DNA of 64,000 nucleotides from NCBI GenBank assembly GCA_013178015.1, contig JABLXR010000004.1, forward strand, positions 1 to 64,000. The letters are read 5' to 3'. Origin of the DNA: Anaerolineae bacterium (lineage in GTDB: Bacteria; Chloroflexota; Anaerolineae; DRVO01). The notes under the pieces are model-generated. The model searched no databases. It was not told where the DNA came from and was given only the letters and a program-made list of their open reading frames with translations. Positions within the stretch are counted from its first letter, which is position 1. Every line of letters starts with the position of its first letter. Shown here one piece after another: positions 11,593 to 62,835 of this stretch. Both the position numbers and the translations under genes were made by a program.

Positions 11593-12414
11593 TTGAGGAC
11601 CACTGCATCGCCGCCCGCTGAACGCTCCGCCTTCCTCCATCTCGCTCACCATACCGCCGTTGCCGCCGCTCTAGCCGGCGGGCGGGCCGCCCAATCCGCC
11701 TGCCTCAGCCCTCTGGAAACCACCCACAAGGGTAGGCACGACCTGGTCACCAATGGGGACCTGGCCGCCGAGGGGGCAGTGGTGAGGGTGATCCGGGAAG
11801 CCTTCCCTGGGCATGGTCTTCTATCGGAGGAAGGCCGATCCGAACAGGGCAACGGCTTCCGTTGGGTGGTGGATCCGGTGGACGGGACCACCAACTACTC
11901 CCGCGGCCTGCCCTTCTACGCCGTTTCGGTGGGCCTGATGGAGGGTGACGAGTACCTGGTAGGGGCGGTGTACGACCCGGTTCGCGACGAGATGTTCTCG
12001 GCCTGGCGGGGCGGTGGCGCCTACGTGAACGGTCGGGCCATTCACACCCGTGACACCGCTGCCCTGGATGACTGCGTCTTCAGCCTTGGCCTCTCCTACG
12101 TGCCGGCGGAGCGAACGCAGGTGATGGAGGTAGGCCGGCACATGGCTCCCATCTGCCTTACCCTGCGCGAGCTCGGTTCCGCTGCCCTGGCCTTGGCGTA
12201 CATCGCCGCCGGCCGGCTGGACTGCTACCTGCACGCCCACCTCATGCCCTGGGATGGGGCGGCAGGGAAGGTGATCCTGGAGGAGGCCGGCGGACTGATG
12301 ACCGACCTCGAAGGGAGACCGTGGACCTTCGCCACTGGAGCCACCCTGGCTGCCGGGCCCCGCATCCACCGGCCCCTCCTGGACCTCATCCGCAGCCTCT
12401 ACCGTGAGGGCTGA
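11593..12414 (+). CDS. Inositol monophosphatase family protein
   Basis: Mg2+-dependent, Li+-sensitive type phosphatase of 273 aa. The metal sites are visible: GLLSEEGRSE (Glu), WVVDPVDGTTNYSRGLPF (the DPxDGT motif) and MPWDGAAGKVILEEAGG near the C-terminus. Members act on inositol-1-phosphate, fructose-1,6-bisphosphate, histidinol phosphate or PAP; the exact substrate cannot be fixed. I chose TTG 11593 with GGAGGGG 3 bases upstream; no ATG exists before the conserved helix. Its last codons overlap the start of the following lipoprotein gene by 11 bases, suggesting coupling. Confidence 0.85.
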   Translation: MRTTASPPAERSAFLHLAHHTAVAAALAGGRAAQSACLSPLETTHKGRHDLVTNGDLAAEGAVVRVIREAFPGHGLLSEEGRSEQGNGFRWVVDPVDGTTNYSRGLPFYAVSVGLMEGDEYLVGAVYDPVRDEMFSAWRGGGAYVNGRAIHTRDTAALDDCVFSLGLSYVPAERTQVMEVGRHMAPICLTLRELGSAALALAYIAAGRLDCYLHAHLMPWDGAAGKVILEEAGGLMTDLEGRPWTFATGATLAAGPRIHRPLLDLIRSLYREG

Positions 12415-13660
12415 TCCTGGGCGAAGGCGGGTCCTGCTGGCCCTGGCCTTCCTCCCCCTGGCAGCGTGCTCTCCGCAGCGAGAGACCTGGACACCGGAGC
12501 CGCCCACGCCCCCGCTGGCCGACGGCGGCCGGGTGGTGCTATTCCTGGTGCCGGGCCTGGGGCTGAGCGATCTACTGGTGGCCAGTGGCGAGGGCGCGCT
12601 CCCAAACGTGGCGCTCATGCGGGAGCGAGGGCTCCTGGTGGAGCACCTGGACTCGGCGCCGGGCGTGATCTGCACTCCCGGCGAGGTCGGCCGCGAAATG
12701 CTCGCCTGGGAGTATGAGGCGATAGCCCCTCCGTGCCCAACCTGGGACCTGGGTCTAGAAGGGGTGATGCTCGAGGACTGCCCGCCGGCATCCTCCCTGG
12801 ATGTGGCCGTGACCGCCTGGCTGGATAGGTTACAGGTTACAGGGGACAGGTTACAGGGGATAGGGGATAGGGTACAGGGGATAGGGGATGGGATGCGGAG
12901 CGTCTGTCCCCCCTCTTCCCCAAGCCGTGCAACGGGTGACGCTTTCCCTGTAACCTGTAACCTATCCCCTGTAACCTGCAACCTGTGCCCTGTAGTAGTG
13001 GCGCTGGACGGCCTGCTCGCGTTGCAGACGGGGCATCTCTTGGCCGACCCACGGCAGCCGGGCTACGACGAGGAGGCTGCTCTGCGTTTCGCCGGAGCCT
13101 GGCTGACGGCTCTGAGGGGCCTGGACACGGCTCTGGGGCGCGTTCTCAGTCGGGTGGACCTCAGCCTGTGGACGGTGGCACTGGCCTCCACGTGCGAGGT
13201 GGGGGCGGTTCACGGTGCCCTCGACCCGGCCCAGATCCGAGGATCGCCCCGGGTGCTGGCGGGGGGAGCCATTCTGGAGACTGAAGGGGGAGTGGCCCTA
13301 CCCGAGGGAGAGGCCTGGTCGGGCGTAGAGGCCGGTCGCGGCCCTGAGCCGGGGGGCAGTGCCGAGAGCAGCAGCGCCGGTGTCCGCTTGCTCGCTCCCC
13401 CCGGGTATGCCTTCGTGCCCGGGGATGGCACCCTTCCCCGAGCGGTACCTCGGCCGGGAGGATTCATGCTCGCGGTGGGACCGGGTCTGTCCCAGGGCGT
13501 GCGGCTGGGAGCCATGCTGCCTGCCTCGGTCGGGAAGCTGCTCTGGGGCCTGACCGATGACAGCCACAGAGACAGTGGTGGGCCTGAGGTGAGCCGCCAT
13601 GGAGCGGTCGGCGGCGGATCGATGGATGAGTTCGGGGAAGCATCGGACTATGCTGGTTGA
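12404..13660 (+). CDS. Lipoprotein, alkaline-phosphatase-superfamily-like, with repeat insertion
   Basis: Exported lipoprotein of 418 aa: GTG start at 12404, Arg-rich n-region, hydrophobic core and lipobox LAAC. The first part (RVVLFLVPGLGLSDLLVASG, LPNVALMRERGLLVEHLDSA) and a later LDTALGRVLSRVDLSLWTV are like phosphodiesterase/alkaline-phosphatase superfamily proteins, but the metal-binding residues are not all evident, so enzymatic activity is doubtful. Residues about 141-190 are encoded by a simple-word inverted repeat (12823-12990) and look foreign to the fold. The tail beyond residue 300 is low complexity. It lies between an IMPase gene and a PHP gene, overlapping both slightly. Confidence 0.65.
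   Translation: MRADPGRRRVLLALAFLPLAACSPQRETWTPEPPTPPLADGGRVVLFLVPGLGLSDLLVASGEGALPNVALMRERGLLVEHLDSAPGVICTPGEVGREMLAWEYEAIAPPCPTWDLGLEGVMLEDCPPASSLDVAVTAWLDRLQVTGDRLQGIGDRVQGIGDGMRSVCPPSSPSRATGDAFPVTCNLSPVTCNLCPVVVALDGLLALQTGHLLADPRQPGYDEEAALRFAGAWLTALRGLDTALGRVLSRVDLSLWTVALASTCEVGAVHGALDPAQIRGSPRVLAGGAILETEGGVALPEGEAWSGVEAGRGPEPGGSAESSSAGVRLLAPPGYAFVPGDGTLPRAVPRPGGFMLAVGPGLSQGVRLGAMLPASVGKLLWGLTDDSHRDSGGPEVSRHGAVGGGSMDEFGEASDYAG
12823..12990. repeat. Word-repeat inverted element inside a coding sequence
   Basis: A perfect 22-bp inverted repeat has arms 12823-12844 and 12946-12967. The left side and the first part of the loop are built from the words ttacagg, acagggg and gatagggg, and further copies of the complementary words continue past the right arm to about 12990. 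The element is in frame and stop-free within the host gene. Confidence 0.9.
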
Positions 13661-25009: not shown

Positions 25010-25040
25010 GGCCGCTAGGATAACGCAGCCAGGCCGCGGC

Positions 25041-25284
25041 GACAAAGACACGGAGAGGGGGTGACACGGAGACGCGGAGACGGGGTGACGGGAAGACACG
25101 GAGACGAGCTGGCTGGGGGCACTCTCCCAGTCTCCGCGTCTCCCCGTCTCCCCCTCTCCCCGTCTCCGCGTCTCCCCGTCTCCCTGTCTCCGCGTCTCCG
25201 CGTCTCCCTATCCCCCCTCTCCCTGTCTCCGCGTCTCCCCGTCTCCCCCTCTCCCCGTCTCCGTGTCTCCGCGTCCCCGCGTCT
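25041..25284. repeat. GTCTCCGCG-word satellite with inverted arm
   Basis: About 245 bases built almost wholly of the words gtctccgcg, gtctcccc and their complements. A left arm in purine-rich orientation (25041-25106) faces a longer right arm (25130-25284). The longest perfect pairing found is 18 bp (25068-25085 with 25158-25175). It ends exactly at the stop codon of the primase-polymerase gene. Confidence 0.9.
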
Positions 25285-26076
25285 CTACCTCAGCAGCGCC
25301 AGGAGACTGCTCACGGAGTTCCGGGGCACTTCGGTAGGGCCGGAGCGCTCCAGGGCTTTCTCGGGGGTGGCGTCCTGCGCCTGGAAGCCTTCCAGTTCGT
25401 CCCGCTGCAGCGGTAGCGACACCAGCCCACTCTCCGGGTGCACCGACCAGGGCGACCGGAGCGAGCCGTTGTGATGCACGATGTTCTCGTCCAGCAGCAA
25501 AGACCGTGCGTGCTCCGGGTCGGCCGAGTTGGTGAGGGTGATGGGGTCATCGGGGGACAAGTAGCGGTAGAACTCGCCGCGCCACTGCCCCGCCTGCAGT
25601 CGCTCCTCCAACCGGTCGCGCAGGAAGACGATCACCCGACGCTCGAAGGGCCAGGGCTCGCCCCCTCCCGCCTCCCGTGCCTGCTCCTGATCGAAGGCCC
25701 AGTAGAAGTGGAAGCCGCGACGGCCGGAGAACTTGAGGGAGTACTCTACCCCGAGTTCGTCGAGCAGCGACGCCAACTCGGCGGCGGCGGCGCCCGCCAG
25801 GGCGAGGGGGACCTCCACGTCCCGGCGATCGATGTCCAGGATGAAGTAGAGGAAGCCGTCTTCTAGGTGAGGATGGAAGGAGTAGCAGTGCTGTCGGGCC
25901 CAGTACATGACATCGCTGTGAGTCTCGACAGCAATGAAGTCGCCTCCCTTCTGCCGACGGCGGAAGATGACCCGCTTCTCGAACTTGAGCTCCATTCCCA
26001 CCGGCCTGCCCTGCAAGAAGGGCAGTACGCTGTCGGCCTTGGCCTCCCAGTATTCCATGAGCCATTGGATGGGCAC
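25285..26076 (-). CDS. Stand-alone archaeo-eukaryotic primase-polymerase domain protein
   Basis: Protein of 263 aa (GTG start) with the primase/LigD-polymerase fold. Motif I is YFILDIDRRDVEVPL (the D-x-D pair), motif II is SLKFSGRRGFHFYWAF, and the third conserved block is RSPWSVHPESGLVSLPL, reminiscent of archaeal PriS and LigD-type polymerases. It has neither a ligase nor a nuclease domain. Possible roles are repair synthesis at breaks or priming/lesion bypass; this cannot be decided. It sits in a minus-strand run next to an APH-like kinase and an exopolysaccharide operon, with no Ku or ligase gene in view. Confidence 0.75.
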   Translation of the reverse strand: MPIQWLMEYWEAKADSVLPFLQGRPVGMELKFEKRVIFRRRQKGGDFIAVETHSDVMYWARQHCYSFHPHLEDGFLYFILDIDRRDVEVPLALAGAAAAELASLLDELGVEYSLKFSGRRGFHFYWAFDQEQAREAGGGEPWPFERRVIVFLRDRLEERLQAGQWRGEFYRYLSPDDPITLTNSADPEHARSLLLDENIVHHNGSLRSPWSVHPESGLVSLPLQRDELEGFQAQDATPEKALERSGPTEVPRNSVSSLLALLR

Positions 26077-28470: not shown

Positions 28471-28571
28471 CGAGTGACTGGTGATACGTGATACGTGACC
28501 CGTGACTCATGATAGGTGAACCTTGTCATACCCCCACTCATCACGAGTCACGTATCACTCGTCACTCGTCA
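28471..28571. repeat. gtgatacgt/gtgactcgt word-repeat hairpin
   Basis: Direct word copies on the left (gtgatacgt twice, gtgacccgtgactc) face complementary words on the right. A 12-bp perfect pairing joins 28488-28499 and 28547-28558. The element lies between the glycosyltransferase start and the deaminase stop codon. Confidence 0.85.
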
Positions 28572-28970
28572 CTACTCGTTCCAGTAGAAGGGCAGCAAGT
28601 CCCTCAGCTTGACGGTCTGCTTCTCGGAGAGGATGACGTCAGCTTCGATGTTGCTGCGGTCTATCTGCATCATGAACTCGCGGCACCGCCCGCAAGGAGG
28701 CAGTATCTCGCTGTCGCCCACGGCCACCACGGCCGCTATCCGCGTCTCCCGGTGCTTGAGCATCTCGGCGATGGCGGAGTGCTCGGCGCAGAAGCCGATG
28801 CCACAGGCGACATCAATGCATATGCCGGTATAGACGTTGCCATCGGCGGTGAGGATGGCGGCGCCCACCCCTCCGGCGCTGAAGCCGTCGCCGGGCGACA
28901 GCTCGAAGCTCCCTTGTACGCTCCTGGCGGCGGCGATCAGCCGCCGGACGACGTCACCAGTCTGCACCAC
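28572..28970 (-). CDS. Cytidine-deaminase-family protein
   Basis: Zinc-dependent deaminase of 132 aa. The zinc and catalytic residues are in GFCAEHSAIAEML (Cys, Ala, Glu) and PPCGRCREFM (PCxxC). The surrounding GFSAGGVGAAILTADGNVYTG matches cytidine and blasticidin-S deaminases. It could salvage cytidine/deoxycytidine or act on a nucleoside antibiotic. Start is GTG, with GGAGGC 4 bases upstream of the first of two successive GTGs. The gene is 14 bases after the P-loop kinase stop, so it shares its transcript. Confidence 0.85.
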   Translation of the reverse strand: MVQTGDVVRRLIAAARSVQGSFELSPGDGFSAGGVGAAILTADGNVYTGICIDVACGIGFCAEHSAIAEMLKHRETRIAAVVAVGDSEILPPCGRCREFMMQIDRSNIEADVILSEKQTVKLRDLLPFYWNE

Positions 28971-38157: not shown

Positions 38158-39411
38158 TTGGACAACCCCGACGCCCGACGTGTAGCCATAGTTGGCATGG
38201 GCGCTGTCACCCCCTTGGGGAACGATCTGCCCTCGTCCTGGGCCGGGATTCTGGCCGGCCGCTCCGGGGTGGGGCTCATCACTCAGTTCGACCCCAGCGA
38301 CCTCCGCACCCGCATTGCGGCAGAGGTCAAGGAGTTCGATCCTACTCGCTATCTGGAGGTGAAGGAGGCGCGGCGGATGGACCGATTCGTCCACTTTGCC
38401 GTCGCCTGTACCCAGGAAGCCCTAGCTGACTCCGGGCTGGATCTGGCGCAGGAGGATCCCCGGCGCGTGGGCGTGTTGCTGGGCTCGGCCGTGGGCGGAA
38501 TCCACGTGCTCCTGGACCAAGTCGAGGTCATGCGGGAGCGGGGTGCCCGCCGGGTTAGCCCCTTCGCCATTACCGGCCTGATGCTGAACGCCGCCGCCGG
38601 TCAGATCAGCATCATGCTTGGGGTCCGAGGCCCCAGCATTGCCCTGGCCACAGCCTGCGCCACCGGAGGCCATTGCCTGGGAGAGGCGGCCGAGATCATC
38701 CGCCGTGGAGACGCCGACATCATGGTCGCCGGAGGCTCGGAGGCCGGCGTGGTGCCCATCGCGCTGGCCGCCTTCGACAGCATGCATGCCCTCTGCAGCC
38801 GTAACGATGAGCCAGAGAAGGCCAGCCGTCCCTTCGATGCGGACCGCGACGGTTTCGTGGTGGGCGAGGGGGCAGGGGTGATGATCCTGGAGCGGATGGA
38901 TCGGGCCCGGGCGCGCGGGGCTCGCATCTACGCCGAGCTACTGGGCTACGGCGCCACTGACGACGCCTACCACATCGCTCAACCGTCTGAGGGAGGAGAA
39001 GGAGCGATGGAGGCGATGGAGGCAGCCCTCCGCGCCGGCAACCTCCGGCCGGAGGATGTGGATTACATCAACGCCCACGGTACCAGCACCCGACTCAACG
39101 ACGCCATCGAAACCCGCGCCATCAAGGGGGTCTTCGGCGAGCACAGCCGCAAGTTGGCCGTCAGTTCCACCAAGAGCATGATCGGCCACCTGTTGGGGGC
39201 AGCGGGAGCGGTGGAGGCCATCGTCTGCGCTCTAGCCATCCGGGATCAGGTGTTGCCGCCCACCATCAACTACGACACTCCCGATCCAGAGTGTGACCTG
39301 GACTACGTGCCTAACGTGGCCCGGCCGGCCGAGGTGAACGTGTGCCTGTCCAACTCCTTTGGGCTGGGGGGCCACAACGGGACGGTGGCTCTGCGTAGAG
39401 TGGAGCAGTAG
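38158..39411 (+). CDS. fabF: 3-oxoacyl-ACP synthase II
   Basis: Condensing enzyme of fatty acid elongation, 417 aa. Features: [20 protein letters not shown], nucleophile Cys in [16 protein letters not shown], His in [12 protein letters not shown], Lys and second His in [17 protein letters not shown], and the final [16 protein letters not shown] chose TTG 38158 behind GGAGGAG; the longer frame (from 38083) has no family residues. It stands alone with no other fab genes, so it may be a second copy or a specialised synthase. Its stop codon lies inside a word-repeat hairpin shared with the convergent AAC(3) gene. Confidence 0.93.
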
Positions 39412-39515
39412 AACGCTGATGACGCTGATACTGCGCTGATCCCTGCTGATTCCTCCTCATCATCTCTCTCTGATCAGAGCGAATCAGCGTGCCATCAGCG
39501 CCGATCTGCGTTCTA
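39409..39515. repeat. Stop-to-stop cgctgat word-repeat hairpin
   Basis: The first arm (39409-39420) starts on the fabF TAG and the second (39504-39515) ends on the TAG (read as cta) of the convergent gene; the 12-bp arms pair with one mismatch. Between them are further cgctgat words and their complements. Confidence 0.85.
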
Positions 39516-40354: not shown

Positions 40355-40405
40355 TCTCATCAGCCTGAATCAGCGTAGTATCAGCGCAATCAGCGTTCCA
40401 TTGCC
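40355..40405. repeat. Half-element of cgctgat words
   Basis: Words atcagcctgaatcagcg, tatcagcgc and aatcagcg lie upstream of the AAC(3) gene and before rnc. The second arm is missing or very diverged. Confidence 0.7.
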
Positions 40406-44832: not shown

Positions 44833-45417
44833 GTGAACTGGAGATTTCTGTTAGCGGTCTCAGGCCTGTTGCTGGCCCTAAGTGGCTGTAGCGTGAACCG
44901 CGGCGGCGACGGGCAGGCTGCTTTGGACGGGGGCTGGACTGTCAGTAGCAGCGCGGACGGCTCTTTGGAACTGGCTCATCCCAGCAACTGGCGCGTGGTG
45001 GAACGGGGTGAGCGGGGGCTCGGCCTGCAGTGGGAGCAAGGGTATCGGTTGGAGATTCATCTGGTGGTCGCCTCCAGGCCCGCCGGTCAGTCCCAGGCCG
45101 AGGTGCTAGACGGCATGCTGGCGGCAGCGGAGGAGCAGTACCGAGAGGCGGGGGGCCAGATAGAGCCAGCGGGCCGGCGGGTTTGGCTGGGGCAGAGCTT
45201 CATCTGGCACGAGGTGCATTACGTCGCCCGCGCCAGCGATGCCTGCCAGGAGTGCCCCAGAGGCTACGTCGTGGAGCTGCTGGCCTTCCCCAACGAGGCC
45301 GAGAGCCTCCACGCCCGGTTCGTCTGTCCGACCTTCGATGCCCCTGCGGAAGAGGTGGAGCAGCTGCTGCTGGACGTCATCAACACGGTGGCTCTAGAGT
45401 CCCCAAGCGGCATCTGA
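44833..45417 (+). CDS. Lipoprotein of unknown function
   Basis: Predicted lipoprotein of 194 aa: signal NWRFLLAVSGLLLALSGC with lipobox LSGC. The mature domain has beta-sheet-like segments (SLELAHPSNWRVVERGERGL, WLGQSFIWHEVHYVARASD) and a Cys pair in DACQECPRG; similar to the lipoprotein at 32677 in general architecture (PsbP/DUF1795-like) but with no clear match. GTG start 44833 follows smc by 18 bases and could be co-transcribed with it. A word-repeat hairpin follows the stop. Confidence 0.65.
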   Translation: MNWRFLLAVSGLLLALSGCSVNRGGDGQAALDGGWTVSSSADGSLELAHPSNWRVVERGERGLGLQWEQGYRLEIHLVVASRPAGQSQAEVLDGMLAAAEEQYREAGGQIEPAGRRVWLGQSFIWHEVHYVARASDACQECPRGYVVELLAFPNEAESLHARFVCPTFDAPAEEVEQLLLDVINTVALESPSGI

Positions 45418-45423
45418 ATCGGA

Positions 45424-45523
45424 CGCGGATGACGCTGACGGGACGCCGATCTACGCTGATCAGGAATGGGAAGAACCAAGAGAAGATCAGCGCTGAATCA
45501 GCGTAGTATCAGCGTCATCCGCG
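45424..45523. repeat. cgctgat word-repeat hairpin
   Basis: A perfect 15-bp stem joins 45424-45438 with 45509-45523. Between them are additional cgctgat and atcagcg words. It sits between the lipoprotein stop and the apt promoter. Confidence 0.88.
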
Positions 45524-45538
45524 TTCCCTTCCCTACCG

Positions 45539-47153: not shown

Positions 47154-47331
47154 CAAGTATCCTTCTGGGGCGGACGGCGTCTTCGCCGTCGGGCGATCGG
47201 GGCACCAACGGGAGCAACCGAGGGCCAACGAAAACCAAACGCTAACCTATCGGCATCATCTCAGAGGAGAGACGGTGAGTCAAGCAGAAACAGGGGTCCA
47301 GGCTTGTCGCCGCCTGACCGGTGGTACCTGG

Positions 47332-47870
47332 CCGCCGCCGCGCCTGGAAGCGCGGACTCCTCAGGGCAAAGCGCCACACCCCTCGAGGAGTGCGCGCGCC
47401 CACGCGCGAAAGGGCTCCGCAAACAGACTTCCCCGTCCGGGCGCCGCCGCGCCTGGAAGCGCGGACTCCTCAGGGCAAAGCGCCACACCCCTCGAGGAGT
47501 GCGCGCGCCCACGCGCGAAAGGGCTCCGCAAACAGACTTCCCCGTCCGGCCGCCGCCGCGCCTGGGGGCGCGGACTCCTCAGGGCAAAGCGCCACACCCC
47601 TCGAGGAGTTCGCGCGCCCACGCGCGAAAGCGCTCCGCAAACAGACTTCCCCGTCCGGCCGCCGCCGCGCCTGGGGGCGCGGACTCCTCAGGACGAAGCG
47701 CCACACCCCTCGAGGAGTTCGCGCGCCCACGCGCGAAAGGGCTCCGCAGACAGACTTCCCCGTCCGGCCGCCGCCGCGCCTGGGGCCGCGGACTCCTCAG
47801 GACGAACGCCACACCCCTCGAGGAGTGCGCGCGCCCACGCGCGAAAGGGCTCCAGGAGCAAACCTCCCCG
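47332..47870. repeat. Five-copy 109-bp tandem array
   Basis: The landmark ctcgaggag recurs at 47382, 47491, 47600, 47709 and 47817, that is every 109 bases (last step 108 through one deletion). Copies differ at only a few positions, for example tgcgcgc versus ttcgcgc after the landmark and caaag/gaag in the middle. Each unit holds the self-complementary gcgcgc-ccca-cgcgcg core. Because 109 is not a multiple of three and stops are rare, all forward frames stay open; these ORFs are artefacts. The flanks are unrelated genes. Confidence 0.95.
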
Positions 47871-47979
47871 TCGGAGTGCCGACACGGCCTCTAGGGGCTC
47901 ACGGGCGTCGCCGGTCCAGGTGGGAACGAAGCCGACAGTCCCTGCGTCTTCTAGGTAGACTGCTGCCAGGAGGACTCCC

Positions 47980-62792: not shown

Positions 62793-62835
62793 AGGGCCCT
62801 GTCGCGCGTGGGCGCGCGAACTCCTCGGGGGTTAC
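62793..62835. repeat. Inverted single copy of the 109-bp array core
   Basis: The reverse complement carries the gaggagttcgcgcgcccac core and its continuation cgcgcga of the array at 47332, an identity of about 26 bases, then diverges. Confidence 0.75.

Follow-up and report, generated by a model that had tools for sequence, protein, structure and literature searches.

The 23S rRNA IVS of Coxiella burnetii has an S23p/IVP ORF and complementary ends and has been termed selfish (PMC4990558). Tandem heptamers (GACAGAT) lie ahead of this ORF in a number that varies between strains, an RNase III site falls at the first repeat, and a solved IVP relative, XCC0516 (2gsc), is a pentamer of four-helix bundles (PMC4990558). 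In-frame insertion of palindromic DNA is known from the RPEs (Rickettsia palindromic elements), which are short (about 150 bp) and sit in unrelated protein genes; the review that covers them names no gene-bearing partner (PMC10969869). Dispersed arrays with a period of 7 nt, mostly intergenic, have been described in Xanthomonas (GGGAATC) and Nostoc (GGGGA[T/C]T), and Xanthomonas genomes hold 70-75 convergent (inverted) pairs of such arrays each; the same study saw no general connection of the arrays with mobile elements, and it drew no link to IVP (PMC4692102). For the TAACTGA arrays of Beggiatoaceae mobility has been considered (PMC4679880). There is no agreed answer to the question of where dispersed bacterial heptamer arrays come from.

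The IVP family (PF05635) is itself without an established function. A large survey lists it with CRISPR-linked proteins (PMC10910872), a search for DGR-based immunity turned it up more often than any other family (PMC10053308), and Avd of diversity-generating retroelements resembles it in sequence and structure (PMC10053308). In the open-licence literature we found no paper that links word arrays, IVP and gene-less copies, and an earlier description is possible. Here we describe a hairpin segment at positions 12823-12994 of a 64,000-nt stretch of DNA (the whole of which we call the window). The segment is very probably a MITE-like, gene-less, non-autonomous copy of an IVP-coding, word-armed mobile element, retained in its host gene since it is translatable.

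A word-armed hairpin within a protein-coding gene

Two arrays of tandem heptamers in inverted orientation enclose a unique middle, and the whole lies inside a longer ORF (Table 1). The preliminary description had claimed a perfect 22-bp inverted repeat, arms built of tandem words, host coding sequence on both sides and a passage free of stop codons, and we recovered each of these features. The 22 bp at the outer end of the left arm pair without mismatch with 12946-12967 in the right arm, and the word arrays extend into longer, imperfect pairings (39 nt at 87% and 49 nt at 82% complementarity). The host ORF stays open through the element, and the coding signal on either side of it is in one and the same frame. 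The extent given earlier, 12823-12990, was correct at its start and short at its end, since the element reaches about 12994. The statement that its length preserves the frame can apply only to the net insertion, with borders known approximately; the element as delimited here is 172 nt long, which is not a multiple of three. Folded as RNA, the segment reaches -106.5 kcal/mol, compared with -74.6 +/- 4.5 in dinucleotide shuffles (z = -7.2). The word and hairpin structure is far beyond chance.

Table 1. Positions of the segment, its host ORF and two related elements in the window.
Feature	Positions	Strand	Remarks
Host ORF, putative lipoprotein	12404..13660	+	418 aa; function name read from the sequence
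Left arm	12823..12892		tandem heptamers GG[TT/GG/GA]A[C/T]A
Perfect 22-bp inverted repeat, left half	12823..12844		partner 12946-12967
Unique middle (loop)	12893..12945		gene-free, ~54 nt
Right arm	12946..12994		same words as left arm in reverse-complement orientation
Gene-less element(s), sister word family	25033..25297		octamer CCNNGTCT; IVP-bearing relative L087 (contig C57)
Gene-less element, another sister family	28473..28573		TGATACG words; IVP-bearing relative L089 (C4:68993)

Translated, the insert contributes roughly 57 residues (QVTGDRLQ... / ...PVTCNLSPVTCNL) to a protein that begins with a putative lipoprotein-type signal. No Pfam family matched the host ORF, and no Rfam family matched the window at the gathering score. 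The host ORF lies downstream of a gene that reads as inositol-monophosphatase-like. Among same-family genomes only G002 gave a match; its homologue stands in the same gene order, again downstream of an inositol-monophosphatase-like gene, and has no such segment. At 34% identity the two proteins align on both sides of the element, and the element region is largely unmatched. A second homologue, in G030, is farther than that of G002 and seems longer in the element's region, so the alignment with homologues that had been proposed as a check came out in favor of an insertion in the first case and may speak against it in the second. The absence of the insert from the G002 protein is good but not final evidence, because it concerns a single distant homologue. 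For the host gene, the comparison of occupied and empty forms is this one protein alignment, and such a comparison is clear only for the plasmid relatives described below.

The host ORF is one of three genes in which copies of the family lie in frame and free of stops; the others encode a GNAT acetyltransferase (L050) and a helicase of the UvrD type (L055), the latter identified with Pfam. All three copies translate into QVTG-type and PVTCNLSP-type peptides. When aligned to the solved acetyltransferase 4bmh, residues 5-65 of the GNAT protein match residues 59-119 and residues 108-229 match 119-241, a clean break with 42 residues inserted at a single point (4bmh residue 119). The helicase has about 98 residues where UvrD has about 10, and the element accounts for about 56 of them. 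Over all two-armed copies, 22 of 180 frames are stop-free; thus, the in-gene copies are probably survivors that happened to be translatable.

Gene-less copies and IVP-bearing relatives in the same genome

A genome-wide search for the same words had been suggested in the preliminary description. With the segment DNA as query, its own genome (4.57 Mb, 97 contigs) returned 99 matches; our genome-wide counts all derive from hits of such searches. Upon inspection of about 40 of these places, most proved to have G-rich words on the left, C-rich words on the right and a middle between the two arms, and some had a single clear arm; middles and word orders mostly differ from copy to copy. Word use follows a lexicon, in which six words (GGTTACA, GGGGATA, GGTTATA, GGGAATA, GGGGACA and GGGAACA) account for 308 of 399 words. 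Word positions 3-4 are TT, GG or GA in 353 of the 399, and 11 have TG or GT, the one-step intermediates. In two copies beside duplicated gene ends the middle is common and whole words have been swapped (TTA for GGA). Given this whole-word exchange and the rarity of intermediates, the words seem to change as units. Complementarity between arms is 23.0 within one element and 21.1 between different elements (p = 0.016). Because an element's own arms are only slightly more complementary than foreign ones, any selection on the hairpin as such may be weak. Templating of one arm by the other, which the same difference favors weakly, was set aside.

Codon usage places most copies at gene ends, and genes that read into a copy commonly stop within its first few words, often on a TAG that a word supplies. 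The earlier proposal that an intergenic-type hairpin had moved into a gene is supported by this placement of the roughly 40 other family sites, mostly at gene ends or between genes, and is further backed by the nearest syntenic homologue, which is without the segment, and by the two other proteins with the same type of peptide insert.

Searching the same genome for PF05635 (the 23S-IVP/S23 four-helix-bundle protein) gave five genes, and PF13366 (GxxExxY/PDDEXK_3) gave two. All seven (5/5 and 2/2) are flanked by inverted word arms of different lexicons, the five IVP genes having five different ones. The IVP gene L085 (C4:75667-75981) is bracketed by the very heptamers of the 12823-12994 segment, so the S23p/IVP ORF that is absent from the segment is present in a same-word relative. 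Two other IVP lexicons (octamer GGAGACGC and heptamer TGATACG) have dozens of genome matches each, including the two additional elements of Table 1. Each of the three word families is thus represented by a single copy with IVP and by many gene-less ones. The GxxExxY genes L090 (C30:120671), L091 (C5:69183) and L176-L204 are bracketed by inverted word arrays. GxxExxY loci may be a sister kind of element, with periods near 8-10 and a protein of predicted nuclease fold.

The window itself contains no IVP or GxxExxY gene that we could find. It does contain other repeats: at 47330-47874, a tandem array of about five 109-nt units with a GC-rich palindromic motif (CCCTCGAGGAGTTCGCGCGCCCACGCGCGAAAGGGC) forms a different repeat family, with an inverted copy at 62796-62831, 15 kb away. 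Words of the ATCAGCGT/CATCCGCGTTC type, direct and inverted, at 39411-39440, 40365-40405 and 45416-45533 look like a further word family.

Word-armed IVP loci in other genomes and on plasmids

PF05635 occurs in 92 of 301 genomes of the phylum. Among the 59 IVP loci with full flanks, 43 have flanks that are inverted-complementary above the control 95% level, compared with 2 of 59 control regions taken 1 kb away. Strong tandem arrays are present at 42 IVP loci and in 5 controls, with a period of 7 in 31 and of 14 in 7. A second set of 22 other loci gave inverted flanks at 16, against 1 of 17 controls. At about one in four IVP loci, inverted arms are not clear. In 64 of 79 cases the gene upstream of IVP is read in the same direction as IVP itself. 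GxxExxY loci display the same type of inverted flanks (21 of 29), with a weaker tandem signal and periods mostly of 8-10. A single-protein IVP scan yielded 14 named loci, and the same arm design appears at named IVP loci from Bradyrhizobium, Planctomycetota, Acidobacteria, Bacteroidales, Omnitrophica and Nomurabacteria, the Bacteroidales locus having a word array on one side only. In three Bradyrhizobium species (L122, L125 and L127) an IVP element sits between nuoC and nuoD; its gene is diverging and its arms keep the same words.

The words of IVP arrays follow a rule, YAGNNRN, that carries 3.33 bits of information, compared with a null maximum of 2.48; most published heptamers fit this logo no better than chance, and TAACTGA fits it well. 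Word similarity between loci rises with the identity of their IVP proteins (Mantel r = 0.26; 0 of 2000 permutations as high), from a mean of about 0.37 below 40% identity to 0.63 at 50-70%. This tracking of gene by arm fits shared descent and is by itself no proof of recognition. At an IVP locus (L251) of G008, a class relative from another family, the arms use the own words of our segment. The class relatives with segment-word matches (G008, G020, G031, G033, G049 and G052) all have IVP, a weak test of co-occurrence because IVP is found in 41 of 60 class relatives anyway.

Cyanobacterial plasmids carry IVP genes at several kinds of junction, among them cas6-cas4, cmr2 (cas10)-cmr3 and junctions between genes of a conjugative plasmid. 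Three plasmid junctions were found in both occupied and empty forms among related plasmids. At site 1, the empty junction reads AAAAAGTAA-TTAACAAATAAAT-ATG in two plasmids, with flanks about 98% identical and one letter different in the second. Two other plasmids carry an IVP element there, and their left arms differ by exactly 14 nt, that is two heptamers (the word copy numbers of L225 and L229 are 14 nt apart). In Brasilonema the same site holds a gene-less hairpin with related words and an unrelated GC-rich middle, which is the plasmid counterpart of the 12823-12994 segment, and in Nostoc C052 it holds a left arm and a truncated IVP gene. One operon has a second, different IVP element in the next junction, and at L234 (Nostoc N6 pNPM1, 803-1367) the IVP gene seems to be interrupted by a word array of the same lexicon, a nested insertion. 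At sites 1-3 the empty junctions are wholly free of words, which come in together with the gene. Target-site duplications are inconsistent, 4-5 bp GTAA(T) at one site and TAATTAA at another. From the comparison of occupied and empty forms, past movement is well supported.

The IVP elements L221 (Anabaena sp. 90 pANA02) and L224 (Picosynechococcus PCC 7003) occupy the cas6-cas4 and cmr2-cmr3 junctions. Insertions at such positions could make PF05635 score as CRISPR-linked, as in the survey mentioned above (PMC10910872).

Origin of the segment and comparison with known systems

We propose that the full-length element consists of two inverted arrays of short tandem words around one small gene, IVP/S23 (PF05635). 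In this reading such elements land at gene junctions in operons, often right after a stop codon, where they are tolerated; rarely, one lands inside a gene, here in frame where the heptamer arms have no stop codon. IVP may bind or act on the word arms, as DNA or as an RNA hairpin, copying and movement may proceed through host replication or repair, and gene-less copies may be mobilised in trans. For the element itself, we observed that words and gene occur together at junctions that are wordless in relatives, and that gene-less copies outnumber gene-bearing ones. Host replication or repair is proposed because no reverse transcriptase was found, the search having covered PF00078 (RVT_1) in a genome that is about 95% complete. 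We also found no transposase or other catalytic protein for the elements. We regard this specific route, binding of IVP to the word arms with copying through host replication or repair, as doubtful. In the sister elements, the membership of GxxExxY in a predicted nuclease superfamily is a hint of cutting.

The word arms might instead be pre-existing intergenic regulatory repeats (RNA-protein binding, G-quadruplex or terminator-like) at which the IVP gene tends to insert. Heptamer arrays have been proposed to be regulatory or G4-forming (PMC4679880, PMC4692102), and most copies here do lie between genes. However, the empty plasmid junctions are wordless and gain words and gene together, three copies sit inside proteins, and the arms follow IVP relatedness at close range, all of which render this origin very improbable. 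Slippage is a second candidate, in which a minisatellite would have grown from a seed in the gene, and independently elsewhere, with no mobile element involved. The tandem heptamers and the shift of copy number by whole words between L225 and L229 agree with such growth, but slippage would neither yield two inverted arms around a unique middle nor spread one six-word lexicon to about 40 places, and it leaves the IVP genes between arms and the empty sites unexplained; we consider it very improbable. A REP/BIME-type palindrome mobilised by a RAYT (Y1) transposase is also very improbable: REPs are likewise dispersed hairpins and the genome has one Y1_Tnp gene, but that gene lies among different, non-heptamer palindromes, and the arms of our elements vary in their word arrays, lack a fixed foot sequence and have IVP as their associated gene. 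Finally, although repeats are prone to mis-assembly and the genome is a draft in 97 contigs, an assembly or sequencing artefact that joined a repeat into the gene is hardly credible, given the frame kept on both sides, the unique middle and the same in-frame event in two more genes on other contigs.

The Y1_Tnp gene, the only one in the genome (L175, C21:22580-22912), sits amid several near-identical GC-rich palindromes (CCGGCGAAGGCCGGCTTCGCAA), and together they are likely a REP/RAYT system separate from the heptamers.

Reading the segment as a gene-less copy of an IVP element invites a broader and more tentative generalization, which we judge slightly less likely to be true than false. It would define a broad class of bacterial mobile elements, known until now only piecemeal, whose ends are evolving arrays of short words rather than fixed sequences and whose only gene is IVP (a four-helix bundle with no known catalytic activity) or, in sister elements, the PD-(D/E)XK-like GxxExxY; cyanobacterial, xanthomonad and other heptamer arrays would be their debris, and IVP genes linked to CRISPR and other systems would in part be operon insertions. 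The reading may explain both the scattered repeats and the puzzling IVP protein, and should IVP belong to a mobile element that lodges in operon junctions, the CRISPR-type associations of PF05635 need re-reading. The plasmid systems offer a setting in which movement can be studied.

Compared with the 23S rRNA IVSs, the elements share the IVP family and complementary ends able to form a long stem, which the segment has. By contrast, IVSs lie in rRNA helices, whereas the elements described here lie in operons and protein genes throughout the genome, their arms are long arrays of one lexicon, and gene-less copies are common. We therefore rejected the segment as a 23S rRNA IVS: it is in a protein ORF, not in rRNA, and has no S23p ORF (an ORF that is frequent, not universal, in IVSs). 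Rather, the segment has two features of the proposed IVP word-armed group, inverted word arrays of one lexicon and a same-word IVP copy (L085) in the genome. The diversity-generating retroelements differ in their reverse transcriptase; no PF00078 match was found in this genome. MITEs (PMC10969869) are similarly gene-less, multi-copy and bounded by inverted repeats, and mobilisation in trans by a fuller relative would be a further likeness; the elements here differ in having no transposase (the partner carries IVP), no fixed terminal inverted repeat and no consistent target duplication. With the published heptamer arrays they share dispersed arrays of period 7, and of the published words only TAACTGA fits the IVP word logo well. 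For in-frame insertion the RPEs are the closest system, since they too are palindromic and inserted in frame. RPEs are sequence families with a conserved peptide, whereas we find a word array and an IVP-carrying partner. The segment is thus possibly new as IVS/MITE-like selfish DNA, perhaps as part of a larger class, and would provide a non-rickettsial case of palindromic selfish DNA that adds peptide segments to proteins.
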